From NCBI RefSeq assembly GCF_008831505.1, contig NZ_CP044507.1:2480001-2544000 (forward strand): a DNA stretch of 64,000 nt, in the 5' to 3' direction. Below the pieces are notes generated by a model. That model was not told the DNA's origin. It made no database searches and saw only the letters and a list, made by a program, of their open reading frames with translations. Made by a program: the position numbers and the translations under genes. Shown one piece after another: positions 30,654 to 40,895 of the stretch; position 1 is the stretch's first letter; every line of letters begins with the position of its first letter. Origin of the DNA: Chryseobacterium sp. (GTDB taxonomy: Bacteria; Bacteroidota; Bacteroidia; Flavobacteriales; Weeksellaceae).

Positions 30654-32441
30654 TTACTGGAAATTGTTTCTCAAATCACGCACTTCCTTTACTTTCGATT
30701 TGAAATAGTCGGCTTTTTGCGGGTGCTTTTCGGCCAGGATGTGGAAAGCATGAATAGCCCGCGCGTAAAGTTTCTGTTCCACGTAAATATTGGCCAAAGT
30801 CTCTGTCATAAGGTGGGAAATATCACTTTTCTTTTCTTTGATGACAAAGTTTCCTTCCTCACGCAACTGCGAGATACGGGGGGCAGTTTCGATAAATTTT
30901 TCAATAATCTCTGTTTTCCTGTCCTCTTCCGGTACCGGCACAACTGGCGGAGCAGCTTCTTTGCGGTCGATTTTGAGCCAGTTTTGCCATGTATTGATAA
31001 ACTGAGGCACATTACTTTCGTCATCAGCAACGCTTTGTACTGGCTCTGTTACTTGATCCACTGATTTTGCCTCTATTCCTGAAGGTTGTTTCTGAATAAC
31101 AGGAACTTCCTCTACAGTTTTCATTTCTTCGGTCGCCTCTTGCGTAATTTCAAATTCTGCTTTAGGCAGCTGCTCTTCTGTTTTAAGCAGAGCATCAGGT
31201 GTATGCAAAGATACACTCATTGGTTTCCAGCCCGTTCTGACTGAGGCTTTAGATGCGTCAATTGTCCGGCTCTTATCAGTTTCACCGGCAGACGATGCCG
31301 GAACATCATCCATAGTCGCTGAATCAGAGCCGGAAACGGATTGACTTGGCTCTTCTTCCACAGTGGGAGGAGTTACAGGTGCAGGCGTTCCCGATTTCAC
31401 CAAAAAATCCTGAGTATCACTGAAACTGATTTCTGAACTTTGAGCTTCCTCTTCCAGCGGTGTCTTCTGTATCTGCGCAGCCTTTTTCTCCTTGATTTTC
31501 CTCTCCACTTCAGCGATCAGCCGCTGCATTTCTGCTTCATGTTTGTTCGATACCGATGCGGGAGGCACTGTGGTTTCATCCTTTTTTGGTGTTGCGGTAA
31601 TCTTTACTTCGGGCAGGAACGGAGCGATACCGTGGAAACTAACATCGGCGGCTGCCGGTTCCTCCCCGTATGCTTCCGGCGATATCTGAATATCTTCATG
31701 TGTTTCCGTTTCAGGGGCAGCATCTGAAACTGCTTCTTCCTCAGCTTCAAAAACTTCATCTTCCCTGGCAGCCAGCTCATTAACCGGTGCCGATTCTTCA
31801 CTGAAAACCTTTGGTGCGGCCACATTTGCATCTGCGATCACTAACTTACCACTTTCCGCAGAGGCCTCCTTATCAATCACCGGAGTAGCCTGTTGCAGAA
31901 AGTCTTCTTCACCTTCAAATAAGATTCTGTTCAGTTCTCCATTTACATAAATGGGCTTTGCAGCACTGGTTTCGGCAGGTGTGATTTTTGTAAATATCTT
32001 CTCTTCAGCCTTTTCTGCCAGCCCGGGGGCATCCTCAACCGCAGTCGTGTTGTCTGTTTCTGCATTCACAGGCCTGCCGGCGGGAAGGTTGGCCGCTATA
32101 TCTGCAACAACATCATCAACTTGTGACTTTTCGTCAGTATCATGGGTTGATCCGGACTGTTCCGCAGAAACCGCAGGAGTTCCAGCTTCCCCAGCCACGG
32201 TAAGGGCTGTAGTTCGACCATTTACAAGCTGAAACAGAATCTTTTTATCTGTAGTATAGGCGGCGGTTCTTGAAAGAACATTGCGGTAATCTTCAGGATC
32301 GAAGCGTGAGGCAGCAAGCAGTGCGAGCGCACGCAAACTCTGCACGTAAGGCGTGGCCTTGATCTGCTCATTCAGCAGTTTAAGATCATCCGCCTGTAAA
32401 AGATTTGGGTTTTCTAAAAGGTCCAGTATACGCGTGTTCAT
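30654..32441 (-). CDS. Long acidic protein with a TPR-like C-terminus
   Basis: 595 aa. The N-terminal 80 residues are ordered (LLENPNLLQADDLKLLNEQI, PYVQSLRALALLAASRFD). The middle, about 85-520, is a low-complexity acidic region rich in Glu, Ala, Pro, Ser and Thr. The last 70 residues form a TPR-like helical hairpin (LMTETLANIYVEQKLYARAI, HAFHILAEKHPQKADYFK). No signal peptide, so cytoplasmic. Similar proteins follow lptE in other flavobacteria, with varying linker length. Function unknown, possibly scaffold. It starts two bases after lptE. Confidence 0.7.
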   Translation of the reverse strand: MNTRILDLLENPNLLQADDLKLLNEQIKATPYVQSLRALALLAASRFDPEDYRNVLSRTAAYTTDKKILFQLVNGRTTALTVAGEAGTPAVSAEQSGSTHDTDEKSQVDDVVADIAANLPAGRPVNAETDNTTAVEDAPGLAEKAEEKIFTKITPAETSAAKPIYVNGELNRILFEGEEDFLQQATPVIDKEASAESGKLVIADANVAAPKVFSEESAPVNELAAREDEVFEAEEEAVSDAAPETETHEDIQISPEAYGEEPAAADVSFHGIAPFLPEVKITATPKKDETTVPPASVSNKHEAEMQRLIAEVERKIKEKKAAQIQKTPLEEEAQSSEISFSDTQDFLVKSGTPAPVTPPTVEEEPSQSVSGSDSATMDDVPASSAGETDKSRTIDASKASVRTGWKPMSVSLHTPDALLKTEEQLPKAEFEITQEATEEMKTVEEVPVIQKQPSGIEAKSVDQVTEPVQSVADDESNVPQFINTWQNWLKIDRKEAAPPVVPVPEEDRKTEIIEKFIETAPRISQLREEGNFVIKEKKSDISHLMTETLANIYVEQKLYARAIHAFHILAEKHPQKADYFKSKVKEVRDLRNNFQ

Positions 32442-34304: not shown

Positions 34305-35738
34305 CTATTCGCAGGCCCCTAAAAGTGTACCCTGCGTATTTCCGTATACCAAAACGGTCACAATGTCTCCAGGTTTCTGCCCCGGTTTTTTATCGAACAC
34401 ACAAACTGCATTCTGGGAGTTACGGCCCTTCCATTGATTTTCATTTTTCTTGGAAACACCTTCAATAAGCACCTCATGCTCACGGCCCACATAACTCTCC
34501 ATCCGCTTTCGCGAGAGTTGACCCTGCAGTGCGATCACTTCTGAAAGCCTTCTCTGCTTAACTTCTGCCGGAACATCGTCCTCCATCTTTTTATGTGCTG
34601 GAGTACCGGGCCTTTCGGAATAAGCGAACATATAACCATAATCGTATTCCACCTCTTTCATGAGTGAAAGAGTCTGCTCATGGTCGGCTTCGGTTTCACC
34701 GCAGAAACCGATAATCATGTCCTGGGAGAATGCAATTTCAGGAACAATTTCCTTTGCCTTCCTGATAAGTTCAAGATATTCCTCACGTGTATGCTGGCGG
34801 TTCATGCGCTCCAGAATCCTGTTGCTGCCGCTCTGTACAGGCAAATGAACGTATTTACAGATGTTCTTATGCTTCGCCATTACGGTGAAGACATCCATGG
34901 TCATATCATGCGGATTGGAAGTAGAGAAGCGAATACGCATCTCCGGTACCGCTACAGCTGCCATATTCAGGAGCTGTGCAAAATTGACCGCGGTAAGCTT
35001 CTGCATCTCCGTTGCATTCCTGAAGTCCTTCTTGGCTCCACCGCCATACCAGAGGTATGAATCCACATTCTGACCCAGCAGGGTAATTTCCTTATAACCG
35101 CTGTTCCAAAGTTCCTGACATTCAGAAATGATGGAGTGCGGGTCACGGCTGCGCTCCCGGCCGCGTGTGAAAGGGACAACACAGAAAGTGCACATATTGT
35201 CGCAGCCTCTTGTGATCGTTACAAATGCTGTAACACCGTTTCCGCCCAAACGGACCGGATTGATATCTGCATAGGTTTCCTCTTTCGAAAGAATGACGTT
35301 TATGGCGTCGCGTCCTCCTTCTGTTTCCTTCAGGAGATTGGGAAGGTCGCGGTAAGCGTCCGGGCCCACCACCAGATCTACCAGTTGCTCTTCCTCCAAA
35401 AATTTAGTTTTCAGCCGTTCTGCCATGCAGCCAAGCACCCCTACTGTTAAACCGGGTTTGGCTTTTTTAAGGTTTTTGAACTGCGAAAGGCGCATCCTTA
35501 CCGTTTGCTCGGCTTTTTCGCGAATGGAACAGGTATTCAGCAGAATAAGATCTGCCTCATCCTGGTTTAGTGTCGTGTTATAACCCTGCTCATTCAGGAT
35601 GGAGGCTACAATCTCTGAATCAGAGAAATTCATCTGGCAACCGTAACTTTCCAAAAAGAGTTTCTTGGAATTGCTGGGTTTTTCGGCTATGGCAAAGGCT
35701 TCGCCCTGCTTTGTTTCGTCTATATATTTATCCTGCAC
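34305..35738 (-). CDS. miaB: tRNA-2-methylthio-N6-dimethylallyladenosine synthase
   Basis: 477-aa radical SAM methylthiotransferase acting on i6A37 of tRNAs. The N-terminal UPF0004 domain has three cluster cysteines in SYGCQMNF (C34), NTCSIREKA and LGCMAE. The radical SAM motif is [22 protein letters not shown] domain ends the protein ([20 protein letters not shown] and after). TATCTTTG on the minus strand at 35796-35803 is a -7 match, so miaB likely has its own promoter apart from the secreted-protein array upstream. Confidence 0.96.
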
Positions 35739-35795: not shown

Positions 35796-35803
35796 CAAAG
35801 ATA
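35796..35803 (-). promoter_or_regulatory. -7 promoter element for miaB
   Basis: TATCTTTG on the minus strand matches TAnnTTTG and lies 57 bp before the miaB ATG. No clear -33 element was found. Confidence 0.4.
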
Positions 35804-35827: not shown

Positions 35828-36619
35828 CTAGAAAGTAGATCTGTGCATGCCGCGCTGAAACATGGGATTGATATGAGGCTGATTTTGCGGAGCTTCACTT
35901 TCACGCGCAAACTCCAATTTAATTGGGAGTCGGAACCGAGCGCGGACCGGCAAACCGTTGAATGTAGCAGGCACCCATTTGGCTTTGATCTTGTCTATAG
36001 CCCGGTGCGCTTCTTTTATCAGCTGCTTATCATTGCCGGCGATATTTACATCTTCAATTATGCCTTGCTGATTTACCACAAAACCTATTTCAATAGAAAC
36101 TGCGCGACCACCTCTTCCTATGGCAGATAGATCGAAATGATTTGCAAACTCCCTTCTGAAGGCCCGAATCCCACCGGGAAACTCTGCATTAGTAGGCGAT
36201 TTAATCACTAACCCATCCACGTAATTCTCAAATAAAACGCTGGGTAAAAAAGGAATTTTGGCAATAGCCTGTACCGGCTGGCCCTGTACAGATGCGGGCT
36301 TCCAATTCTTTAGATGCGGGAGAACCTTTCTAAACATGTCGTAGGCACACTTATTGGCCTCTATAGTTGCGGAGTCAAAATCTTTAACAAAACGAACCTT
36401 AGAATTTTCTGTAATTAGGACGGAAGCTTCATAACTTTCAGACTCTGAACAGTTAGTGAATTTCTGATCCTTCAATATCTGGTGCATTTCCCTATATAAC
36501 TGAGGTTTCCCACCAGAGTAATAATCCTGATCCTGAGGAAATTCAAAAATTGAAGGCTGTTCCTGCGCCACAACATTGGAAAACAAAACAACAGCTATAA
36601 GAAGTAAATAGTTATTCAT
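35828..36619 (-). CDS. Secreted protein with two TonB C-terminal-like modules (array member A)
   Basis: 263 aa, last gene of a five-gene array. After a signal peptide (cut near residue 18), module 1 has DYYSGGK (32-38), C57, VRFVKDFDS (75-83), NKCAYDMFRKVLPHLKNW (C91) and PASVQGQPVQ. Module 2 has EFPGG (146-150), VNQQGIIEDVNIAG (182-195), then KWVPATFNGLPVRARFRLPI, the classic end of a Bacteroidetes TonB domain. No N-terminal membrane anchor or proline-rich spacer is present, so it is not an ordinary TonB. Residues 1-120 align without gaps to member B, including both cysteines, which may form a disulfide. Confidence 0.75.
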   Translation of the reverse strand: MNNYLLLIAVVLFSNVVAQEQPSIFEFPQDQDYYSGGKPQLYREMHQILKDQKFTNCSESESYEASVLITENSKVRFVKDFDSATIEANKCAYDMFRKVLPHLKNWKPASVQGQPVQAIAKIPFLPSVLFENYVDGLVIKSPTNAEFPGGIRAFRREFANHFDLSAIGRGGRAVSIEIGFVVNQQGIIEDVNIAGNDKQLIKEAHRAIDKIKAKWVPATFNGLPVRARFRLPIKLEFARESEAPQNQPHINPMFQRGMHRSTF

Positions 36620-36693
36620 AGTAAAAGTTTTTGTACAAAAAAATTACAAGCTAAGACTGAAAATTATTCCTGATAGTTTTTTACCTATAAATT

Positions 36694-37410
36694 TTAGCGA
36701 AACCGCATGGATATTGGTAGCCGCATGCTTGCTTTAACAGCTTTACCGTTCACCTCCGCCGGTTTCCACCGCATAGTTATCCGTTGAACTGCAGCTACTG
36801 CAGCTACAGCCAAATCCCAGTTGTGATCTCCTGTTACTTTGATATTCTCCATTTTACCCAACTCATTAACATCAAAGGAAACCTGAATCGATATTGTCTT
36901 GGCATCTGAATCTACTGACTTTGTATTAAAGTTTTTTCCAAACTCTTTCTGAAAGGCGGCAAATCCGCCGGGAAATTCCGGTTGCTTAGTAAATTCGTTT
37001 GGATGAAACCTTTTCTCTTCAAAATGATCTGCCGGAATAAACCGCACCTCTGCAATGGCAGCTGTGGGCTTCCCGCCAACTTCCGCTGGCACCCAACCTT
37101 TTAAATGTGGCAGGACTTTGCGGAACATATCGTACGCACATTTGTTTCGGGCAACGTTGGCGCTATCAAAATCCTTCACGAAAAACGCGGTGCCATCCTC
37201 CCGGACAAGAACCGAAGCTGTATAAGACTGGTCATCTTCGCATGGCTGCAAATTGTAATCTTTCAGCAGCTTTTGGATTTCATCATCCAACATTGTTTTG
37301 CCGCCACGATAGAATTCCTGTTCCGAAGGGGAGATTACGTAATCAGCCAGGCCCTGTGCATTAACTTTTACAAAAAGGCTGAGAATAGAAAAAAGAAAAA
37401 TTTTACGCAT
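36694..37410 (-). CDS. Secreted protein with two TonB C-terminal-like modules (array member B)
   Basis: 238 aa, the closest relative of member A. Signal peptide to about residue 18. Module 1: EFYRGGK (32-38), C57, FFVKDFDSANVARNKCAYDM (C91), then LPHLKGWVPAEVGGKP. Module 2: PEFPGGFAAFQKEFGKNF (144-161), the strand VSFDVNELGKMENIKVTG, and RWKPAEVNGKAVKASMRLPI. The FPGG and W-x-PA-x-NG motifs are those of TonB domains in Bacteroidetes. It lies 74 bp upstream of member A and 42 bp downstream of member C. Confidence 0.75.
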   Translation of the reverse strand: MRKIFLFSILSLFVKVNAQGLADYVISPSEQEFYRGGKTMLDDEIQKLLKDYNLQPCEDDQSYTASVLVREDGTAFFVKDFDSANVARNKCAYDMFRKVLPHLKGWVPAEVGGKPTAAIAEVRFIPADHFEEKRFHPNEFTKQPEFPGGFAAFQKEFGKNFNTKSVDSDAKTISIQVSFDVNELGKMENIKVTGDHNWDLAVAAVAAVQRITMRWKPAEVNGKAVKASMRLPISMRFR

Positions 37411-37452
37411 CAGATAAAAGTCTTAAATAACAAAAAGGTCATCTTGGTTTGC

Positions 37453-38250
37453 CTAGCGGATCTTTTGAAACAATCTATAATTGTCCCAGTGAAAGTTTGG
37501 ACTACGGCTGTAACGAAAGTTCTTTTTTCGGGAATCCATCGGCACTATCACAACCCACTCGAAGGGCATGCTGTTCATTGTTGCTGGCGCCCAGTCGCCG
37601 GGAATATTTTTCAGTTTAGATGCAGCTTTGTGGATACTATTTGCGTCCGTACCTCCATACACCAACGCAGCATCCGTAAGTTGTCCCTTATCACTTATCA
37701 AAAAAACAACAGCAAGCGGTTCATCGGTATTTCGCAGAATATCATTGGTCAGCACCAGAGATATCTTTTTGTTTAATACCTCCAGGCCATCCGAAAAAGT
37801 AGCCGGTGTGAACACGTTTTCCGCCGGATTAAGTTTTGAGTATGAAATAAAAAATGGCTGTACAGTAAATTTTGCGATGGCTTTCACCCTACTTCCATCT
37901 ACAACAGCCGGCATCCAGCCCTTTAGGTGCGGAAGCAATGCTTTGCTGAAGTTATAGGCACATTTATTCGCAGCAATGGTTAGTGAGTCTTCATCTTTAA
38001 CAAGATTAATTTTTCCATCCGGATAAACCAGCACAGACGGAGAGTACACTTCCTTGCGGTCCTTACATCTGGGAATATTGTGTTTTGCAGCAATATTGAT
38101 CATTTCTGCTGTAAGCGCGGATTGGCCACCTTCATAAAAATGCTGTCCGGAAGGATACCTTGCGTGTACCTGTGCGAACAGCTGTAGCTGCCCGGCTGCC
38201 AAAAAGAATATAAATATAGCCAAAAAGCTGCGGTTTTTATAAATACTCAT
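37453..38250 (-). CDS. Secreted TonB C-terminal-like protein (array member C)
   Basis: 265 aa from ATG 38250; the frame opens at 38307 but that would overlap member D, while ATG 38250 starts a clear signal peptide (KNRSFLAIFIFFLAAGQLQLF). Module 1: HFYEGGQ (37-43), C62, INLVKDEDS, NKCAYNFSKALLPHLKGW (C97), PAVVDGSRVKA. Module 2 is diverged: no FPGG, but VVFLISDKGQLTDAALVYGG and DWAPATMNSMPFEWVVIVPM keep the strand order. It begins one base after the member D stop codon, so D and C are surely co-transcribed. Confidence 0.72.
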   Translation of the reverse strand: MSIYKNRSFLAIFIFFLAAGQLQLFAQVHARYPSGQHFYEGGQSALTAEMINIAAKHNIPRCKDRKEVYSPSVLVYPDGKINLVKDEDSLTIAANKCAYNFSKALLPHLKGWMPAVVDGSRVKAIAKFTVQPFFISYSKLNPAENVFTPATFSDGLEVLNKKISLVLTNDILRNTDEPLAVVFLISDKGQLTDAALVYGGTDANSIHKAASKLKNIPGDWAPATMNSMPFEWVVIVPMDSRKKNFRYSRSPNFHWDNYRLFQKIR

Positions 38251-38251
38251 A

Positions 38252-39037
38252 TCAGAAACCCCGGTAATCTGGCATACTTCTATGTTCACTCTCTCTCTCC
38301 ATATCAAAATTAAAATCCTGCTGAAAGTTCATCAACAACGTGTATCGAACGGGAATTCCATTAACCGATCCGGGCCGCCAAACCCCTTTAATCGATTTTA
38401 TTGCGGCTGCTAATTTATTATTGTTGATTTCGGACAACTGCGTATTTCTGATCTGTACGTCATCAATTTTCCCATCAGGAGAAATCACAACCGCAAGTTC
38501 AACCTTTCTCCGGTCTACATTATAAGCCAGGGAACTCTCCAGAATATGCTTTACCTGAGAATGGAAATTACCGTTACCTTTTTTATAATTCGGCTCTATA
38601 ATAATATCCGGCGTCACTTTTCTGGTTTCACTAAATATAACATTCGGTACAATGTTCACCATCGCCACAGCCTTAACCGGCTTTCCGTCCACCGTAGCAG
38701 CTCTCCAACCCTTCAGATGGGGGAAAAGTTTTCTGCTCATTTCGTAAGCGCACTTATTTCTTTGGATGTTCAACGTGTCAAAGTCTTTTATGAAACGGGC
38801 GCGTCCATCAGGATTTACGAGCACTGCCATTGGGTAACGCTCCCCTGTTTCCGCGCAGGGCTTCAGACTTTGAGCCCTTGCGATCTCCTTCAGTTCTTCA
38901 TTCAACCGGTTTAATCCACCATCATAAAATCCCTGGCCATAGGGGTATTTTTCCAGTATCTGTGCGGCGGTAATTACAGGAAAAAGGAAGACGAGGCTAC
39001 AAAGGAGTGCAGATAGACAGCGAAAGCGGAAAACCAT
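38252..39037 (-). CDS. Secreted TonB C-terminal-like protein (array member D)
   Basis: 261 aa. Signal peptide rich in Leu, Val and Phe ends near residue 25. Module 1: GFYDGGL (37-43), C61, ARFIKDFDT, NKCAYEMSRKLFPHLKGW (C96), AATVDGKPVKA. Module 2: LAVVISPDGKIDDVQIRNTQ and VWRPGSVNGIPVRYTLLMNF, without FPGG. Followed after one base by member C. Confidence 0.72.
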   Translation of the reverse strand: MVFRFRCLSALLCSLVFLFPVITAAQILEKYPYGQGFYDGGLNRLNEELKEIARAQSLKPCAETGERYPMAVLVNPDGRARFIKDFDTLNIQRNKCAYEMSRKLFPHLKGWRAATVDGKPVKAVAMVNIVPNVIFSETRKVTPDIIIEPNYKKGNGNFHSQVKHILESSLAYNVDRRKVELAVVISPDGKIDDVQIRNTQLSEINNNKLAAAIKSIKGVWRPGSVNGIPVRYTLLMNFQQDFNFDMERESEHRSMPDYRGF

Positions 39038-39093
39038 ACTAAAAGTTTTTATTGGCAGATTGCATTGCGCAATAGTACAACATTTAGTTTAGA

Positions 39094-39576
39094 TTACATA
39101 TCAAAACTGTCTGTCCGGAAATTAATTTTTTGGCGTATGCGGGAATCCACAGGTATTCCATTGCAGGTTGCGGGCGTCCAGGAAGGGTTCATATTCCTTA
39201 AAGCTAGTTCCACATCACGTTCCAGAAGATGTCCGTTGGTAACTTCAGGTTTTAACTGAAAACGCTGCAGCGAACCGTTTTTTCCTATAAAGAGAATAAG
39301 CTCAAAGGTGCCGTTTACGGTGTAAAGACCTGTATCCAGAAATCCTTTCATCTGCCGGCTGATATTCTGCTTGAAAATACTTTCACCACCGGTAAACCGG
39401 GCATAGACCGGCGAGCCGCACTTCAGGCGGTAATACTCCGTGGGATGATCAAGCTCATAGGAGATGGCAACACGAACAAATTCTTCAGAATTTTCAGAAA
39501 TCTCGCTGTCCTCAATCAGGGTTTGCGCCTGCACAAAAGCACCAGTAAACAACAGAATGAATATAAGACGCATCAT
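39094..39576 (-). CDS. Secreted single-module TonB C-terminal-like protein (array member E)
   Basis: 160 aa, first gene of the array. Signal peptide (RLIFILLFTGAFVQA) then one module: RFTGGESIFKQNISRQMKGF (60-79, the FPGG-type segment), the strand ELILFIGKNGSLQRFQLKPE, and PSWTPATCNGIPVDSRIRQK. Cysteines at 53 and 138 differ in place from the other members. It lacks the module 1 hallmark NKCAYDM. It may be a reduced copy or resemble the founding unit. Upstream is the lysA gene on the same strand, 119 bp away. Confidence 0.7.
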   Translation of the reverse strand: MMRLIFILLFTGAFVQAQTLIEDSEISENSEEFVRVAISYELDHPTEYYRLKCGSPVYARFTGGESIFKQNISRQMKGFLDTGLYTVNGTFELILFIGKNGSLQRFQLKPEVTNGHLLERDVELALRNMNPSWTPATCNGIPVDSRIRQKINFRTDSFDM

Positions 39577-39695
39577 GATGTTAAATTTTTACAAAGTTAA
39601 GGCATAATAGAGATCTGTGCTGCTTATTTTTAAAATCAATAACACACGAGATATTTTCCAAAAACGCGGCACGCCACTTCGGCAAGAGTTACCAT

Positions 39696-40895
39696 CTACA
39701 GTACCTCGATCTGGTTGCGCAGCAAGTCCTCAAATTCATCCCGCTTTCTGATCAGATGCGCTTTACCGTCCATAAAAAGTACTTCGGCGGGTTTCAAACG
39801 GGAATTGAAGTTGGAGCTCATCTCAAAACCGTAAGCTCCGGCATTTCTGAACACAAGCACATCACTTTCCCGCACTTCGTTAAGTTTGCGGTCCCAGGCG
39901 AAGGTATCCGTTTCACAAATATTGCCGACTACAGTGTAAATGCGCTGTGCGCCTTTAGGATTGCTGAGATTTTCGATATGGTGATAGGAATCATAGAACA
40001 TGGGCCTTATCAGATGATTGAAGCCTGAGTTGATACCACAGAATACAGTTGCTGTGGTTTGCTTGATCACATTGGCCTTTACCAGAAAATGACCACTGTT
40101 TCCCACCAGAAACTTCCCGGGTTCAAACCACAGCTGGAATTTCTTGCCGGTCTCCTTCTGATAAACCGAAAGCGCTTTCTCCACCTTTTTCCCCAGAGTC
40201 TTCACATCTGTTTCCAGATCACCTTCCTGATAGGGAATTTTGAAACCACTGCCCATGTCCAGATATTTCAGGTCCGGGAAATGTTCCGCAAGTTCAAACA
40301 TGATTTCCAGACCCTGCAGGAATACATCCGGGTCTTTGATCTCACTTCCGGTATGCATATGAAGCCCCTCAACCAAAAGATTCGTGGATTTCATTACCCG
40401 CTCAATATGCCTGAGCTGATGGATGGAGATTCCGAACTTGGAATCAATATGTCCGGTTGAGATCTTATGGTTTCCGCCTGCATAAATGTGCGGATTGATC
40501 CTTATAAAAATTGGATAAGAAGATCCATATCTGTTGCCAAACTGCTCCAGAATGGAGATGTTGTCTATATTGATATGCACCTTAAGTTCCATTGCATCTT
40601 CAATTTCCTTCAGGTCTACGCAGTTGGGCGTAAACAGAATACGGTTATGAGTGAAGCCTGCACGCAACCCCAGTTTCACTTCATTTATTGATACACAGTC
40701 CAAACCCGCACCCAGTTTTTCAATATATTTAAGGATATTGATGTTGGTTAGCGCCTTGGCGGCATAAAAAAAACGGGTATGTCGGTGGAATGATGAAGTA
40801 AGTTTTTCGTACTGAATTTTTATACTTTCCGCATCATACACATATACCGGGGTTCCGTACTGTTCTGCAATCTTAAGCAAGTCTTTGTCTGTCAT
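39696..40895 (-). CDS. lysA: Diaminopimelate decarboxylase
   Basis: 399-aa PLP enzyme that makes lysine from meso-diaminopimelate. PLP Lys47 is in FYAAKALTN. Other family boxes are GAGLDCVSINE, HMHTGSEI, MGSGFKIPY (glycine-rich phosphate site), WFEPGKFLVGN and CETDTFAWDRKL with the active-site Cys. Length and order are standard for the alanine racemase-like fold III group. It lies 67 bp after the exonuclease gene. Confidence 0.95.
   Translation of the reverse strand: MTDKDLLKIAEQYGTPVYVYDAESIKIQYEKLTSSFHRHTRFFYAAKALTNINILKYIEKLGAGLDCVSINEVKLGLRAGFTHNRILFTPNCVDLKEIEDAMELKVHINIDNISILEQFGNRYGSSYPIFIRINPHIYAGGNHKISTGHIDSKFGISIHQLRHIERVMKSTNLLVEGLHMHTGSEIKDPDVFLQGLEIMFELAEHFPDLKYLDMGSGFKIPYQEGDLETDVKTLGKKVEKALSVYQKETGKKFQLWFEPGKFLVGNSGHFLVKANVIKQTTATVFCGINSGFNHLIRPMFYDSYHHIENLSNPKGAQRIYTVVGNICETDTFAWDRKLNEVRESDVLVFRNAGAYGFEMSSNFNSRLKPAEVLFMDGKAHLIRKRDEFEDLLRNQIEVL

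Follow-up and report, generated by a model that had tools for sequence, protein, structure and literature searches.

The window, a stretch of 64,000 nucleotides from Chryseobacterium sp., contains five consecutive open reading frames on the minus strand (35828-39576), each of which encodes a signal peptide and one or two modules related to the C-terminal domain (CTD) of TonB. D1 (35828-36619, 263 amino acids) carries module 1 at approximately 36224-36547, module 2 at approximately 35906-36205 and a C-terminal tail of 25 residues. D2 (36694-37410, 238 amino acids) has module 1 at approximately 37015-37338 and module 2 at approximately 36697-36999, and is without a tail. D3 (37453-38250, 265 amino acids) and D4 (38252-39037, 261 amino acids) both consist of a signal peptide, two modules and a tail, the one in D4 having a YRGF end, and S5 (39094-39576, 160 amino acids) has a signal peptide and one TonB-CTD module. 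The listed reading frame of D3 is longer (284 amino acids, from a TTG at 38307, i.e. inside D4), and the ATG at 38250 was taken as the true start. A sequence-only reading of this DNA had described five consecutive minus-strand genes for proteins of 160-265 amino acids with signal peptides and TonB CTDs, and the reading frames, the leaders, the profiles and the fold all bear this out.

From S5 to D1 the intergenic gaps are about 56, 1, 42 and 74 nt, the ATG of D3 lying 1 nt past the stop of D4. A putative promoter of the cluster, TAACTTTG (39592-39599, minus strand, 15 nt before S5), matches the Bacteroidetes -7 element TANNTTTG, and a putative separate -7 element of miaB, TATCTTTG, lies downstream of the cluster (35796-35803, minus strand). 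One further TANNTTTG match is found inside the end of D4. Such matches say little by themselves, as the window has 70 where 52.5 are expected; taken with the short gaps, however, their placement makes a single transcript from S5 to D1 plausible. The cluster is flanked by a miaB-like gene downstream (34305-35738, minus strand) and a lysA-like gene for a PLP-dependent decarboxylase upstream (39696-40895, minus strand), both conserved neighbours which we place outside the proposed function.

All five proteins have a hydrophobic leader that ends in AQ (VVAQ, VNAQ, LFAQ, TAAQ, VQAQ). The Q-rule (PMC5837995) describes this ending as typical of Bacteroidetes proteins that are exported and cleaved by signal peptidase I, so the leaders fit cleavable-type signal peptides and the proteins are predicted to be exported. 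Inspection of the five sequences by eye revealed neither a second membrane helix nor a proline-rich stretch after the leader. A TonB energy transducer has an N-terminal anchor that engages ExbB/ExbD, and here there are only the AQ leaders with no later hydrophobic segment. It also has a periplasm-spanning spacer, usually rich in proline, and here module 1 starts shortly after the signal peptide; in S5 about 40 residues precede the domain and these are not proline-rich. No linked exbB or exbD was found near the cluster in any genome examined, which is a weak criterion, since many true TonBs are unlinked too. In other words, the five proteins are not energy transducers, as they have no means of transduction of their own, and the lack of an anchor and of a proline-rich spacer had been recognised correctly at the outset.

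The two modules differ in how close they stand to TonB. The Pfam TonB_C model exceeds its cut-off only in module 2 of D2 (2.3e-9) and D1 (2.2e-8); D4 (9e-4) and S5 (6e-3) fall below it, D3 gives no TonB_C match, and module 1 has no Pfam match. At E <= 0.1 TonB_C matches 19 of 22 doubles, i.e. two-module proteins, and D3, D4 and S5 are clearly recognised only via the family's own profiles. With profiles drawn from an alignment of 22 family members, hhalign relates the two modules to each other (97.2%, E 3.7e-11) and S5 to both of them, with 96.1% and E 3.7e-9 for module 1 and 99.7% and E 7.9e-26 for module 2. To compare the modules with anchored TonB, a profile was made from 16 such CTDs of Weeksellaceae. 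Module 2 scored 95 bits against it in D1 and 77 bits in D2, the alignments reaching the last strand, which pairs with the TonB box in solved complexes. Module 2 of D3 (about 20 bits) and D4 (about 38 bits), S5 (about 19 bits) and all module 1 copies span 5-38 bits and, judged by these profile scores, are strongly diverged from anchored TonB. The divergence in D3, D4 and S5 means that the members need not all bind the same targets. The motifs listed in the sequence-only reading (FPGG, terminal LPI, FVKDFDS, NKCAYDM) were stated too broadly, as they are literal in D1 and D2 and occur only as variants in D3 and D4 (VKDEDS/IKDFDT, NKCAYN/NKCAYE, no FPGG). Loss of YPxxA was considered as a sign that receptors are not bound, and was dropped because the genome's own anchored TonBs are also without it.

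The AlphaFold2 model of D2 (pLDDT 80.6, pTM 0.49) consists of two helix-strand-strand-helix-strand modules; with this pTM each module is confident, whereas their relative placement is not. Module 2 is predicted to have the TonB CTD fold: VIA-align superposed it on the Helicobacter pylori TonB CTD 5lw8 with Z 9.4 (rmsd 2.5, 85 residues) and on the FoxA-bound TonB 6i97 with Z 8.8. As a fold search with full D2 barely tests module 1, this module was folded alone (pLDDT 85.3, pTM 0.77). Its model matched TonB-family or TolA CTDs in each of the 20 best chains, with Z from 6.4 down to 3.4, ahead of a first unrelated chain at Z 2.9; the Z values are moderate, and the Foldseek E-values are all above 0.001. 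Profile and predicted fold jointly identify module 1 as a diverged TonB/TolA CTD. The claim that four of the five members are double is thus upheld, and structure prediction, where an unrelated fold would have spoken against the assignment, returned TonB/TolA-type folds for both modules.

In each of the four doubles module 1 carries two cysteines at a distance of 34-35 residues (57/91, 57/91, 62/97 and 61/96), just as had been noticed from the sequence. Both are present in 42/42 two-module homologues, where they are nearly always the sole two. A conserved pair is expected of an oxidising compartment and was counted toward export; on this pattern module 1 is probably stapled by a disulphide.

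The cluster occupies a conserved chromosomal site in Weeksellaceae, between the lysA-like gene and miaB. In most genomes examined the order is HerA-like ATPase, exonuclease, lysA-like gene, none to two single-module and one to four double genes, miaB, sigma-54 activator and lptE. The usual content is one double, alone or accompanied by one or two genes with a single module. The S5-type gene is a conserved companion of the doubles, often directly upstream of them. In some genomes the double gene lies away from this locus. The module 1 profile (E <= 1e-6) found matches in 164 of 296 Weeksellaceae genomes, belonging to 16 of 33 genera, and 132 genomes are without it. Most carriers have one copy and several have two or three, the four in this genome being the largest number seen. 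The array is thus not the isolated oddity it had seemed; the survey of module 1 and its neighbours proposed with the sequence-only reading shows the locus to be occupied in many Weeksellaceae, and these genomes frequently encode secreted CTD-only proteins from other subfamilies as well.

Among 295 genomes of the class, strong module 1 matches occurred in two only, both Weeksellaceae. Twelve further genomes match weakly, and the weak hits beyond the family, with E from 7e-5 to 6e-4, proved to be generic TonB_C domains in other proteins, so by profile search module 1 is not convincingly present outside Weeksellaceae. D2 alone retrieved no relative from genome contigs. A profile retrieved three loci, i.e. 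the G003 array, a Bacteroidetes genome with one double and one single gene adjoining lysA (L050) and L051, which was rejected as an ordinary anchored TonB; viral contigs gave no match to the profile. In a maximum-likelihood tree of 42 doubles, D1 and D2 group with genes of congeners (98/94), D3 and D4 share a group of ten rows, drawn from several genera (97/93), and D3 pairs with a gene of another genus (100/100). These placements across genera indicate an old origin of the array, not a recent burst. A functional tie to miaB, lysA or LptE was set aside as synteny only, as homologues occur elsewhere too (L040, L046, L047, L113, L115).

Sequence comparison shows the cluster to change more rapidly than the housekeeping genes beside it. 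Across relatives the doubles are about 29-52% identical where miaB is 82-96% identical. In the closest genome no pair of doubles exceeds 47% identity and synonymous sites are saturated, whereas miaB is 96.2% identical (dN 0.027, dS 1.2). S5 is 84.4% identical to its orthologue there (dN 0.099, dS 0.82), and the resulting dN/dS of about 0.12 indicates purifying selection and no free drift. No evidence of positive selection was seen in S5 at this ratio or in the doubles with their saturated sites. A 595-amino-acid protein without a Pfam match is encoded three genes beyond miaB (30654-32441), syntenic after lptE. It is 63% identical where miaB is 96% identical, i.e. it changes about as fast as the cluster, so that speed alone is no sign of conflict.

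The genome encodes two anchored TonBs (G000:C1:2312428 and 2178998), of which one belongs to an exbB-exbD-exbD-tonB-PBP operon and the other lies outside it, and 17 plug-domain receptor matches. Three more secreted TonB_C proteins (2461264, 2626199, 1564784) bring the anchorless proteins to 8 versus 2 anchored. Secreted CTD-only proteins are common in other genera as well, some in tandem. In one Weeksellaceae genome (G033:C15; L157:5520-9202) two secreted double-CTD genes, each matching TonB_C twice, follow exbB-exbD-exbD-tonB, a small membrane protein gene and PBP, whereas the other Weeksellaceae examined are without them in this operon. In a genome from another family of the class (G237; L055:1114-2609 / L171:5768-7263) two secreted single-CTD genes lie 11-12 nt behind an anchored, proline-rich tonB. 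Both cases are other subfamilies; they support a class of secreted CTDs and not the window locus directly.

The array shares with the TonB energy transducer (TonB_C, PF03544) the CTD fold and, in module 2 of D1 and D2, the sequence across the whole domain. It differs by its signal peptides, the missing anchor and proline-rich spacer, the tandem CTDs, the cysteine pair and the lack of an ExbB/ExbD gene nearby. TolA domain III is similar in fold class (Pseudomonas aeruginosa TolA 1lr0, Z 8.4 for module 2 and 6.4 for module 1), but the array proteins have no TolA anchor or helical domain and no tol-pal nearby, and their sequence is nearer to TonB. Other secreted CTD-only proteins of Bacteroidia (e.g. 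G000:C1:2461264, L137, L154:2584-3276, L055:1800-2192) likewise combine a signal peptide with one or two anchorless CTDs, sometimes in tandem, yet the module 1 signature with its two cysteines and a conserved locus of its own set the window family apart, while two other sets sit behind tonB. BlaR1/M56-type proteins of the same genomes have the same C-terminal domain but are integral, peptidase-like membrane proteins with several helices and are not secreted. We note that M56/BlaR1-like membrane proteins with a C-terminal TonB_C were seen in several Weeksellaceae (L122, L127, L134, L143, L146, L151). In other families of Bacteroidia an N-terminal zinc-finger anti-sigma-like segment is followed by a membrane helix and, at the C-terminus, a TonB_C-like domain (L057, L063, probably also L056, L062 and L064).

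A characterised periplasmic family that would account for the modules was looked for and none was found to match; the doubles fall into no curated family beyond TonB_C or TIGR01352. Literature searches returned no description of anchorless, secreted or double TonB CTDs, a weak negative given the thin coverage of subscription journals. The domain is known, and its anchorless, tandem, Cys-paired form with a locus of its own appears to be undescribed.

The CTDs of TonB and TolA bind their partner peptides through strand addition, and the anchor and the rod turn this grip into force (restated in PMC12204202). The array proteins may have derived from TonB through loss of the membrane anchor and spacer, four of them having gained a second, probably disulphide-stapled CTD copy in front. 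With the anchor removed the grip would stay, and the soluble CTDs could pair with an extended peptide strand in the periplasm. Such a strand would most likely come from TonB-dependent receptors (TonB box or plug extension) or from the Ton complex itself. Pulling would not be possible without an anchor, so the proteins would occupy, hold or hand over their target peptides, i.e. act as a competitor or adaptor of the two anchored TonBs on the 17 plug-domain receptors. We tentatively favour this reading, in which soluble, peptide-binding proteins act as competitors or adaptors on the Ton system or its receptors, at somewhat short of even chances. The sequence-only reading had proposed decoys, adaptors or inhibitors that may bind TonB boxes or plugs. 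It is consistent with the gene order in G033 and G237, the constraint on S5, the fold, the profile scores of D1 and D2 module 2, and export together with the cysteines. Against it, the window cluster is not near exbB, exbD, tonB or a receptor gene and its neighbours are housekeeping genes; furthermore, G033 and G237 represent other subfamilies, one of them in a 56%-complete genome, and could reflect only local tonB duplication. A more specific version, in which the family consists of dedicated, soluble, disulphide-stapled tandem TonB tips that regulate outer-membrane import by competing with the anchored TonBs or handing over receptors to them, as natural dominant-negative TonBs, seems to us rather unlikely. 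If free tips do bind receptors, TonB-dependent import in Bacteroidota would have an extra layer of control that is absent from current models, and tip-only proteins annotated 'energy transducer TonB' would be misnamed. To date the TonB tip has been viewed solely as the part of a motor-driven rod that does the work, and here tips without rods are in the majority. The Cys-paired double family is a compact and testable entry point to this question.

The main alternative, which we consider a serious but less probable one, is that the CTD fold was kept as a peptide-binding scaffold or chaperone for another envelope partner (outer-membrane biogenesis clients, type IX secretion parts or peptidoglycan), unrelated to TonB-dependent import. 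The conserved housekeeping neighbourhood, which includes LptE and lies away from Ton genes, would fit such a role, although the proximity of LptE is family-wide synteny and need not be functional. TonB_C is also used in other settings, such as the M56 peptidase-like and zinc-finger anti-sigma-like proteins, but two other lineages have secreted CTDs within Ton operons. The sequences themselves are divided. Module 2 of D1 and D2 stands near the anchored TonB tips over its full length and thereby favours targets in the Ton system, whereas D3 and D4 module 2, S5 and every copy of module 1 have diverged and could have partners of another kind. It is on this division that the Ton competitor or adaptor is preferred.

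An improbable third explanation is protection, where soluble CTDs would intercept the TonB boxes of Ton-hijacking bacteriocins or phage proteins from a fast-evolving immunity locus. A locus that stays in place while its doubles (1-4) and singles (0-2) vary in number and diverge fast would suit this, but the 595-amino-acid neighbour diverges at a similar rate, selection on S5 is purifying, the locus showed no mobile or defence genes, and PADLOC matched none of 22 members, although undescribed systems would escape it. Decaying TonB duplicates, kept by chance without a selected function, would explain the patchy presence of module 1 among the 296 genomes, the fast divergence and the long tree branches, but are very improbable given open frames in nearly all module 1 matches listed, the invariant cysteines of the doubles, the retained export signals, the dN/dS of S5 and the persistence at one locus across many genera.

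The C-terminal tails were also considered as C-terminal domains of type IX secretion, and this was set aside since about 25 residues are much too short. Tails of about 20-30 residues past module 2 occur in D1 and in members of the D3/D4 group (e.g. 38252-38310 in D4), and their last residues often form a motif of arginine and aromatic residues (YRGF, or NNRYR in relatives).
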